Shown piece after piece: positions 53,630-57,222 of a DNA stretch of 64,000 bases. Positions within the stretch are counted from its first letter, which is position 1; every line of letters starts with the position of its first letter. The stretch is from Deferrivibrio essentukiensis. GTDB taxonomy: Bacteria > Chrysiogenota > Deferribacteres > Deferribacterales > Deferrivibrionaceae. Position numbers and translations under genes: made by a program. The stretch lies in NCBI RefSeq assembly GCF_020480685.1, contig NZ_JAJAFU010000008.1, positions 1 through 64,000 of the forward strand, written 5' to 3'. Under the pieces are notes generated by a model. The model did no database searches and had not been told where the DNA came from. It was given only the letters and a program-made list of their open reading frames with translations.

Positions 53630-53857
53630 TTAGAAAGAAACTACCTCTTTAACTTCAGGGATAGCATCTTTAAGTCTCATTTCTATACCGTGTTTTAAAG
53701 TCATTGTACTAAATGGGCAGCTTCCGCAAGCTCCTGTTAGCTGAACTTTAACAACACCATCATCTGTTACACCAATAAGCTCTACGTCCCCACCATCAGC
53801 TTGAAGTGTAGGTCTTACTTGTTTTAAAACTTCTTCTACTCTTTCTTTCAAAGTCAT
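53630..53857 (-). CDS. NifU C-terminal-domain (Nfu-type) Fe-S carrier
   Basis: A 75-residue stand-alone Nfu domain that carries or delivers iron-sulfur clusters. The CxxC motif is in TGACGSCPFSTMTLKHGIEM (C44 and C47), preceded by VRPTLQADGGDVELIGV, all family-typical. AGGAGG precedes the ATG. It is nine bases after the IscU-like scaffold gene and closes the operon before a strong terminator. Confidence 0.93.
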   Translation of the reverse strand: MTLKERVEEVLKQVRPTLQADGGDVELIGVTDDGVVKVQLTGACGSCPFSTMTLKHGIEMRLKDAIPEVKEVVSF

Positions 53858-54358: not shown

Positions 54359-55543
54359 TTACTTTTTATTATAATAAGGTGACATTTCACACAATCTTGT
54401 AACAATGGTAGGTGTCACCTCTATTACCTTATCTATATCTTCTTCAGTAATATATTTTGACATAGAAAAAGTCATTGAGCCTGCACAAATATCATTTGGC
54501 ACACCCACTGCGGTTAATACATGGGAAGCAGCCAAATCGTCTTCATCCTCAGCCAAAATATTTGAAGAGCACGCAGAACCGCTTGCACCGTAGATATTAT
54601 TCAAAGAATACCACAACAACAGAGATTCCCCTTCAATATATTCTATCCAAAAACTTACATGACCTGGCAATCTTTTTGATTTGTCCCCAGTAATATGCAA
54701 AAAGTCAAACATACCTTCAAGGGATGCCATTAACTTTTTCCCAAGAGCTTGCATTTTTGGGATATATGTATCCATCTCATCTTTAGCTATTCTCGCGGCC
54801 TCTCCCAAACCTACAATACCTGCCACATTTTCTGAGCCACTTCTATATCCGTTTTCCTGAAAGCCACCATCAAACAATGGGGTTAGTTTTACTTCTTTAT
54901 TTACGTAAAGTGCACCAGTACCTCGTGGTCCGTAAAAGTTTTGTCCCGCAAGTGAAAGCAGATCACAATTAAAATCCTTTACGCTTACTTTTTGATGACC
55001 GACAGAAGCAACCGCATCTACATGATAAATAACCCCTTTCTCCTTACAAATCTGACCGATTGCAGCCGAATCTTGAATCGTCCCTATTTCAGGGTTAGCA
55101 GACATAATGGATACTAAAAGCGTATCATCCGTAATTGACTTTTTCAAATCATCAAGATTTATCTGCCCATTGTTATCAACCTTAAGCTTTGTGATTTTAT
55201 AGCCCTCATTTAAAAGCTTTATACAGGTATTTTGAACTGAGAAGTGTTCTATCTCACTTATAATTATATGTTTTTTATCTTTATAATTATCATTTAATGC
55301 CAAACCCTTTATGGCCATATTGTTTGATTCTGTGCCACACGAAGTAAACACTATTTCATCAGGTGTAGCATCTATAAGATTTGCTACATGCTCCCTTGCT
55401 TCGTTTACCGCTTCAAAAGCTTCCCTACCCAACGGGTAAAAATGTGCGCTCGGATTCCCGTATTTTTCTTTTAGAAACGGAATCATCTTTTCAACTACAC
55501 GCTCATCCGGCTTAGTCCCTGCCACATTATCAAGATAAATCAT
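54359..55543 (-). CDS. NifS/IscS-like protein lacking the PLP-binding lysine
   Basis: Homolog of cysteine desulfurases (394 residues, normal length) encoded with the IscU scaffold and Nfu. The fold and many motifs are kept: YGNPSAHFYPLGREA, FTSCGTESNNMAIKG, EIEHFSVQN (H100), YHVDAVASVGH and the catalytic-loop cysteine GASGSACSSNIL (C325). But the segment normally read as SxHK-x-GPKG is SLAGQNFYGPRG: the Schiff-base lysine is Asn202 (codon at 54938-54940) and the preceding His is Gln201. The Gln that normally follows the PLP aspartate is Ala179. Without the lysine it should not act as a standard desulfurase. Archaeoglobus IscS also has Asn here (from memory). A role as assembly partner using free sulfide is plausible. 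Confidence 0.85.
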   Translation of the reverse strand: MIYLDNVAGTKPDERVVEKMIPFLKEKYGNPSAHFYPLGREAFEAVNEAREHVANLIDATPDEIVFTSCGTESNNMAIKGLALNDNYKDKKHIIISEIEHFSVQNTCIKLLNEGYKITKLKVDNNGQINLDDLKKSITDDTLLVSIMSANPEIGTIQDSAAIGQICKEKGVIYHVDAVASVGHQKVSVKDFNCDLLSLAGQNFYGPRGTGALYVNKEVKLTPLFDGGFQENGYRSGSENVAGIVGLGEAARIAKDEMDTYIPKMQALGKKLMASLEGMFDFLHITGDKSKRLPGHVSFWIEYIEGESLLLWYSLNNIYGASGSACSSNILAEDEDDLAASHVLTAVGVPNDICAGSMTFSMSKYITEEDIDKVIEVTPTIVTRLCEMSPYYNKK

Positions 55544-55544
55544 C

Positions 55545-56300
55545 TTATTCTCCTATATTAAATTTTATTTTTTCTGTAATTTGCTCAGATATCAATTTTA
55601 AGTAATCAGCCACTACTGTAGCCCTTTCATCATCCATAAGATAAATTTTGTGAGTCCTGTCATGCAATATACCTGAAAGAGCAATCTCCTCTTCCAAATA
55701 GTCGCTATAAATTTCCACATTGAAAGGCTTAAAAATATCAATAATCATATATGTGGAAAAAGGTAAAAGTCTCAAATCAAAGTTAGATATTATTGTATCA
55801 CTAAACCTTGAAATATACTCTTTCAATCCATTCTGCCCAAACCCCATTCCTAAAATTGCATTAAAAGGGATAGAGCTTTTGAGTATTTTTGGCTCGGTAT
55901 TACCAAAAGTAAATATATCCTTAGTCTGATTTACCAAATCATCTATCCCTGCCTTACCAAATATACAGGTAGGATAATATATATTCCCTTTTATCACATC
56001 CAAAGAATCACCAAAGTACTTTTCCAAAAGATAAACACTCGGCTCGACTATATCTTCTGTATTGTTATAGTAATTTTTTACAACCCCAGTCAGGTCTAAA
56101 ACTGTTCCATTATAATTTTTGATAAAATTCACCAGTTTTTCGTTAAAATCACTTAAAACTATAAACACATCATACGCTGTAACATCCTTAATCTCTTCCT
56201 CATCTGCTATTAGCTCAAGGATAAAATTACTGTCAGATGTAAACTCTTCTAACTCTTTAAACAAAAAATTATCTTTACTAAACACACCAATATTTTTCAT
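55545..56300 (-). CDS. Degenerate aspartate-semialdehyde-dehydrogenase-like protein
   Basis: A 251-residue protein with weak but ordered resemblance to aspartate-semialdehyde dehydrogenase and its USG-1 paralogs: VLDLTGVV in the place of VIDxSxxFR, FGKAGIDDLVNQT resembling SGAGKAGIEELxxQT, IPFNAILGMGFGQNGLKEY resembling FNxIPQIxxFxxxGYTxEE, and a final strand-rich part. The nucleotide-binding GxTGxxG and the catalytic Cys motif are absent, so it is probably not an active dehydrogenase. Its stop abuts the ribosome site of the NifS-like gene, so it is the first gene of the Fe-S operon. Role unknown. AAAGG precedes the ATG. The family link is by eye and could be wrong. Confidence 0.55.
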   Translation of the reverse strand: MKNIGVFSKDNFLFKELEEFTSDSNFILELIADEEEIKDVTAYDVFIVLSDFNEKLVNFIKNYNGTVLDLTGVVKNYYNNTEDIVEPSVYLLEKYFGDSLDVIKGNIYYPTCIFGKAGIDDLVNQTKDIFTFGNTEPKILKSSIPFNAILGMGFGQNGLKEYISRFSDTIISNFDLRLLPFSTYMIIDIFKPFNVEIYSDYLEEEIALSGILHDRTHKIYLMDDERATVVADYLKLISEQITEKIKFNIGE

Positions 56301-56358: not shown

Positions 56359-57222
56359 TTATTTTTCAAAAACAAGGGTGTCATTATCATTAACATAAAA
56401 ATATAGATTTTTCAGTGGTTGCCTATAATCACCAAGCCCTTGAATAACCTGATCTTTATATTTTATTGTCACTGCCGCAGCATTTCCAATATCAAGCTTA
56501 AATGAATTATCAAAACCTATATTCTTAACCAAATCTTTTTCTGCTATAAAGTCATAGTCAGTCTTATTGTCTGCTTTTAAATGAATCCAACATATATCAT
56601 TAAATAATAAGCTTACAATTTTACTGGCCTTCTTTTCTTTATCCTGCTCTTTTTTAAACACTTCCTTGGCAATTATTTCAGGGTCTATTTTAACCTCATT
56701 ACTTTTTGTATTTGCTGAGACATTGTCAATACTTGCGGCACTACTATTATCCAAACTCTTATTGTCTTTACTGATATTATCTGTTACAATACGCTCCTGC
56801 ATAACGTTATCCGTTTTGTTTATTACCTCTTTTGTCGAATCTTTTTTATATAATAAAAAAATTATCAGTGAGATTACAATGATCACACCAATAGCTATAA
56901 AAAACACCTTGTAAAAATTACTGCTGCTGTTAGAAGTATTGCTTTGTTCAGATTCAACAATACCCGCCTTTTTCTTTCCAAAGTCTTCCTTTGAAAACTC
57001 TTCCTTAAAAATATTCTCAATCTCTTCAACATTTAATTTCAGAAAAGATGCATAATTTCTGATAAATCCAAAAGCATGGGCATATGAAGGGAGCTTTTCT
57101 ATCTCCCCACTTTCAATCAAATTTAGAAAATTTGTGCTTATTTTTGTCTTTTTAGAAATATCTTCTAAGTTAAGACCCTGTTTTTCCCTTTCTTGTTTTA
57201 AAATTTCAGAGACTTTACTCAT
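56359..57222 (-). CDS. RodZ-like membrane protein with XRE helix-turn-helix
   Basis: A 287-residue protein: an N-terminal Cro/C1-type helix-turn-helix (about 3-70, LKQEREKQGLNLEDISKKTKIS), one membrane helix (about 104-123), a linker rich in Ser, Asn and Lys, and a C-terminal beta domain of the DUF4115 type (CWIHLKADNKTDYDFIAE and NAAAVTIKYKDQVIQGL). This order is that of RodZ, which links MreB to the cell-wall elongation machine. The start overlaps the end of the TPR gene by 8 bases. It lies in a minus-strand run with coaX and birA. Confidence 0.87.
   Translation of the reverse strand: MSKVSEILKQEREKQGLNLEDISKKTKISTNFLNLIESGEIEKLPSYAHAFGFIRNYASFLKLNVEEIENIFKEEFSKEDFGKKKAGIVESEQSNTSNSSSNFYKVFFIAIGVIIVISLIIFLLYKKDSTKEVINKTDNVMQERIVTDNISKDNKSLDNSSAASIDNVSANTKSNEVKIDPEIIAKEVFKKEQDKEKKASKIVSLLFNDICWIHLKADNKTDYDFIAEKDLVKNIGFDNSFKLDIGNAAAVTIKYKDQVIQGLGDYRQPLKNLYFYVNDNDTLVFEK

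Follow-up and report, generated by a model that had tools for sequence, protein, structure and literature searches.

Within the window, a stretch of 64,000 nucleotides from Deferrivibrio essentukiensis (contig NZ_JAJAFU010000008.1 of a 2.36 Mb genome in 64 contigs), we identified a minus-strand gene, here called misS, whose product is a homolog of the cysteine desulfurases IscS and NifS in which the PLP lysine is missing. Genes for a cluster scaffold and for a presumed cluster carrier follow it, and the features of the locus, in minus-strand order, are these:

56359..57222, minus strand: RodZ-like helix-turn-helix protein, named by sequence appearance; upstream neighbour across the class
55545..56300, minus strand: 251-aa protein, no family assigned; immediately precedes misS in some three quarters of the class
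54359..55543, minus strand: misS-like gene, intact open reading frame for a lysine-less IscS/NifS homolog of 394 aa
54938..54943, minus strand: codons CAA AAC (gttttg on the plus strand, CAAAAC on the minus strand), Gln201-Asn202 in place of His-Lys(PLP)
54539..54559, minus strand: acidic insertion of 7 aa, residues 329-335 (ILAEDED), right behind the Cys325 loop
53867..54307, minus strand: iscU, complete, NifU_N scaffold (NifU_N E 3.6e-51)
53630..53857, minus strand: nfu, complete, NifU C-terminal domain with a CGSC motif, presumed cluster carrier (NifU domain E 3e-30)

The IscS homolog begins one base after the gene for the 251-aa protein and is separated by 51 bases from iscU, which in turn lies 9 bases from nfu, and this spacing would be consistent with a single transcription unit. 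Two Trk-type transport genes come after nfu. With the 251-aa protein, iscU, nfu and the Trk-type genes as its neighbours, misS stands at a locus where iscR, iscA, hscB, hscA and fdx of an E. coli-type ISC operon are not found. The 251-aa protein encoded ahead of misS gave no significant match in Pfam or NCBIfam and is fast-diverging, with 25-35% identity outside the genus. The scaffold keeps all of its cluster ligands (Cys37, Asp39, Cys63, His106 and Cys107), and the domain matches of the two downstream genes confirm what an earlier note on this DNA had stated, that complete IscU and Nfu genes stand beside misS.

Alignment with E. coli IscS, using HMMER and MAFFT, placed Asn202 at K206, Gln201 at H205 and Ala179 at Q183, and showed that His100 (H104) and the catalytic Cys325 (C328) are kept. 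The open reading frame and the alignment agree in this with the earlier note, which had described an intact gene with the same three changes and the same two retained residues; it had missed two further losses, Pro151 at N155 and Thr358 at R354, as well as the insertion of seven residues. The equivalents of T76 and D180 are kept. In IscS structures, N155 and Q183 touch the PLP ring and R354 grips the substrate carboxylate. We compared 65 lysine-less with 53 lysine-bearing homologs, one of the 65 being cut before R354, and found N155, Q183, K206 and R354 all present in each of the 53 and all absent from each of the 65. In every protein of the lysine-less clade Asn, Thr or Val stands in for K206, none of them able to form a Schiff base, and Cys325, His100 and the equivalents of D180 and T76 are invariant across that set. 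PLP binding through another lysine, an objection that the earlier note had raised against itself, finds no support in these sequences, as no compensating lysine exceeds 78% conservation among the 65 proteins. With the Schiff-base lysine and three other catalytic residues lost, cysteine desulfuration is therefore very unlikely. The protein has the class-V aminotransferase fold (Pfam Aminotran_5, 252 bits) and does not reach the cut-offs of the NCBIfam equivalogs for NifS (439.5 bits, cut-off 530.75) and IscS (364.8 bits, cut-off 643.2), a test that discriminates weakly because the lysine-bearing desulfurase of this genome also falls just short of them (515.4 and 451.8). Judged from its sequence, it is a class-V-fold IscS homolog without the catalytic features that define a cysteine desulfurase, and the four-residue split together with the insertion gives a simple signature by which the automatic annotation 'cysteine desulfurase' could be corrected.

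Homologs at 65-89% identity occur in named relatives in the Deferribacterota, and an IscS-type match was found in all 51 genomes of the phylum, 39 of which reach 90% completeness or more with contamination of 5% or less, the rest limiting any claim of absence from a single member. The lysine-less gene is present in 44 of the 48 genomes of the class Deferribacteres. A survey of how widely Asn occurs, as had been proposed, found it in all 43 Deferribacteres copies that were read at this position. A sequencing error or frameshift, for which bases 54938-54943 had been named as the place to look, is ruled out, since 42 further genomes of the class carry the same Asn. The iscU and nfu genes lie directly downstream in all 42 loci that are unbroken by a contig end, and in the same 42 loci the neighbouring IscU keeps Cys37, Asp39, Cys63, Lys104, His106 and Cys107. 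Four Deferribacteres genomes (G029, G031, G032 and G034) are without the lysine-less gene; the first of these, 76% complete, carries iscU-nfu with no misS upstream on its contig. In G031 and G032 (loci L120 and L121) a Clostridia-like lysine-bearing IscS adjoins iscU in place of the lysine-less gene. The other class of the phylum (family f10, three genomes) has only lysine-bearing proteins where inspected, plus a long NifU.

The misS gene is under strong purifying selection, as had been supposed, with Nei-Gojobori dN/dS ratios of 0.024 against G001, 0.044 between G008 and G009, and 0.026 against G002, the last being only rough because synonymous sites are near saturation. The normal desulfurase gave ratios of 0.023-0.043. 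A pseudogene is ruled out by the dN/dS ratios of misS and by its gene order.

NifU_N is found in a single copy in this genome, the one beside misS, and no SufB/SufD core protein was found in the genome. Across the phylum, NifU_N occurs in 48 of 51 genomes, each of which has a single strong copy; in some genomes of family f7 there is in addition a weak match close to the cut-off. The SUFBD core is missing from 49 of 51. Two genomes of family f8, G049 and G050, are the only Deferribacteres genomes with a SUFBD core, which they have beside a lysine-less misS-iscU-nfu. The second, normal desulfurase that the earlier note had suggested looking for was found on contig C7 (L001); it bears the lysine in the motif SGHKIYAPKG, follows cysE and a regulator of the Rrf2 type, and has no iscU beside it. 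Most of the class has a second IscS-type match, next to cysE and a regulator of this type wherever the surroundings were inspected, and the counterparts of L001 inspected in other class members have the lysine. The block of cysE, Rrf2-type regulator and desulfurase at 6983-9248 of L112 is seen in other class members too. In G031 and G032 the separate desulfurase has apparently also been replaced by the Clostridia-like lysine-bearing IscS. The natural exchange of the lysine-less gene beside iscU for a lysine-bearing one indicates that both fill one position in the pathway, and suggests that a catalytic enzyme can serve there.

The nearest likeness among known systems is the IscS of Archaeoglobus fulgidus (PDB 4eb5, 4eb7 and 4hvk; D199K mutant 4r5f), which has in common with our protein the IscS fold, the lost lysine, Ala at Q183, a changed H205, a lost R354 (Leu there), the kept catalytic Cys and His104, and an IscU partner. 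It differs in having Asp rather than Asn for the lysine, in keeping the N155 equivalent and in having no insertion. According to a published account, this lysine-less IscS has no desulfurase activity and donates a cysteine ligand to the cluster on IscU (PMC7585200). The parallel with Archaeoglobus had been drawn before, and it stands as regards an inactive lysine-less IscS but not as regards the residue, which changed from Lys to Asp and not to Asn. The Archaeoglobus-type features here are the loss of the lysine, the kept catalytic Cys and iscU alongside; unlike its archaeal counterpart, the Deferribacteres protein partners the sole NifU_N scaffold that most genomes of a bacterial class were found to have. 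IscS1 of Methanosarcina acetivorans, also archaeal, is reported in the same account to be without the catalytic lysine in one IscSU pair (PMC7585200); we liken it by description, as one of three IscSU copies that stand beside two SufBC pairs (PMC10500019). The MIS system is a minimal IscS-IscU pair, MisS-MisU, in which MisS is classed as a type I desulfurase (PMC12442378), and the bare pair is similar here, with nfu following, whereas the Deferribacteres protein is without the catalytic set. Clostridia-type NifS/IscS proteins are near lysine-bearing relatives in the tree, at 43-48% identity, and two examples, L131 and L132, have iscU adjacent; these proteins have K206, Q183, N155 and R354 and no insertion. 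In the literature searched, which was largely without subscription papers, lysine-less IscS was described solely for Archaeoglobus and one Methanosarcina copy, and none was found for Deferribacteres, an earlier notice being possible. Here such a protein is the fixed partner of the apparent sole scaffold in most of a bacterial class with cultured members, and this opens a way to test whether IscU-based assembly can do without the desulfurase step, and what else IscS contributes apart from persulfide.

Because Cys325 is kept, the gene is closely linked to an intact scaffold gene, and Archaeoglobus offers a precedent, we favour a structural, ligand-giving partner. As had been proposed, partnership with IscU is well supported by the adjacency of iscU and nfu in all of the unbroken loci and by the single scaffold. 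The protein would be a degenerate IscS of the MisS type that lost PLP-dependent cysteine desulfuration and was kept as the partner of IscU, and has probably turned into a helper in cluster assembly, with sulfur arriving by some other route. We infer that its IscS-fold dimer docks IscU, that the mobile Cys325 loop would reach into the assembly site, and that Cys325 may act there as a temporary fourth ligand, or as a docking thiol, during the formation of a [2Fe-2S] cluster out of Fe2+ and sulfide, and that Nfu would then take this cluster onward. In desulfurase-deficient E. coli, H2S rescues cluster assembly and IscU is needed, according to one study (PMC13015791), and since IscU there is fed by sulfide without a desulfurase, the sulfide-fed version is chemically reasonable. 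By analogy, we think it moderately likely that the protein is a non-catalytic IscU partner lending its cysteine to a cluster whose sulfur comes from sulfide. The interpretation in the earlier note is as a whole partly supported: that the sulfur comes as free sulfide and that Cys325 ligates the cluster both seem plausible by this analogy, and a persulfide relay fits the same data.

Against the sulfide-fed reading, the lysine-bearing desulfurase in the same genome could feed IscU in trans. In the relay, which is the main rival, the protein would form no persulfide of its own, and Cys325 would receive one from the separate desulfurase, or from another sulfurtransferase, and pass it to IscU; this would suit the invariance of Cys325, the presence in this genome of a lysine-bearing desulfurase without an iscU of its own, and the further IscS-type match that most class members have. 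However, we know of no relay between two IscS-type proteins, and G031 and G032 seem to have one lysine-bearing IscS beside iscU in place of both, although this fits other models too. We therefore regard the relay as rather unlikely, if well worth keeping in mind.

The insertion was considered separately. From the catalytic Cys to Ser340 there are 14 residues in all 65 lysine-less proteins, and 7 (n=51) or 5 (n=2) in the lysine-bearing ones, so that the insertion of seven residues is present in 65/65 members of the lysine-less clade and in 0/53 of the others. The extra residues are mostly acidic, and Asn328 and Glu334 are invariant in the 65 proteins. It is a speculation that these residues next to the catalytic Cys could take part in iron handling, by binding Fe2+ and delivering it to the IscU site as a kind of built-in frataxin, besides the structural role of the protein. 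The strict distribution of the insertion, its two invariant residues and its place at the loop that enters the IscU site in other IscS proteins would all agree with such an adaptor, but the net charge of the loop (acidic minus basic residues) varies from 0 to 6, and the lysine-less proteins of Archaeoglobus and of the Clostridia phylum are without it. The predicted structure has a good core (mean pLDDT 82) and matches the IscS fold of 8tvt, 1p3w and 4eb7, the last being the A. fulgidus IscS-IscU complex (TMt 0.90), but the loop was predicted with low confidence (pLDDT <50 at 326-343), and because there was no confident Cys loop the insertion could not be placed. An iron-handling adaptor is in our opinion improbable.

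Less probable still is a protein that is still a PLP enzyme, holding PLP without a Schiff base through Asp176 and Thr71 and carrying out slow desulfuration or some other reaction. The invariant equivalents of D180 and T76, and the invariant His100, are what might be expected of such an enzyme. However, N155, Q183 and R354 are gone in all 65 proteins, some have Thr or Val for the lysine, no other lysine is conserved, and the A. fulgidus IscS, which has lost fewer of these residues, is already inactive (PMC7585200). A decaying duplicate without function, which the loss of active-site residues could have indicated, is barely credible with dN/dS of 0.024-0.044 and a fixed gene order over 44 genomes.

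Returning to the non-catalytic partner fed by sulfide, it may be, as a tentative extension that we hold with less than even confidence, that the whole class works with one scaffold and, as its dedicated partner, a non-catalytic IscS with an acidic, possibly iron-handling insertion, and that assembly of its housekeeping clusters has inorganic sulfide, rather than a partner desulfurase, as its starting point.

In trees built with the trait columns removed, the Asn, Thr and Val proteins form one clade (SH-aLRT 98-100) across Deferribacterota and Zixibacteria. The Archaeoglobus IscS falls outside it, and its partner in the tree is an archaeal protein that has the lysine (SH-aLRT 93-95, in two of the three trees). 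Forcing Archaeoglobus together with the lysine-less proteins gave an AU p of 0.049, a borderline rejection, when a Gln protein described below was included, versus 0.58, no rejection, with another set of rows, and separate losses of the lysine in Archaeoglobus and in the bacterial clade are therefore only favoured by these sequence comparisons. In the sole archaeal genome examined (G055) the lysine is present, and matches in a plasmid collection were all below 60% identity.

Among 133 genomes of the phylum Zixibacteria, 22 contain a lysine-less version (Asn in 19, Thr in 2 and Val in 1), all with the insertion; SUF is also present in 18 of the 22, and iscU is adjacent in many, not all. The copies with Val or Thr (L155, L159 and L160) form one well-supported subclade. 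In the Clostridia phylum (that of L054), 58 of 59 inspected genes have the lysine, in a sample of high-scoring matches that does not give a rate for the phylum. G473 of that phylum (L188/L189; L189 5923-7113) has an IscS homolog with Gln for the lysine and Cys for the His. This Gln protein is a probable sister of the lysine-less clade (SH-aLRT 97, in the sole tree containing it). Its equivalents of N155, Q183 and R354 are gone, it has no insertion, and its gene is followed by iscU and then by a DsrE-like gene.
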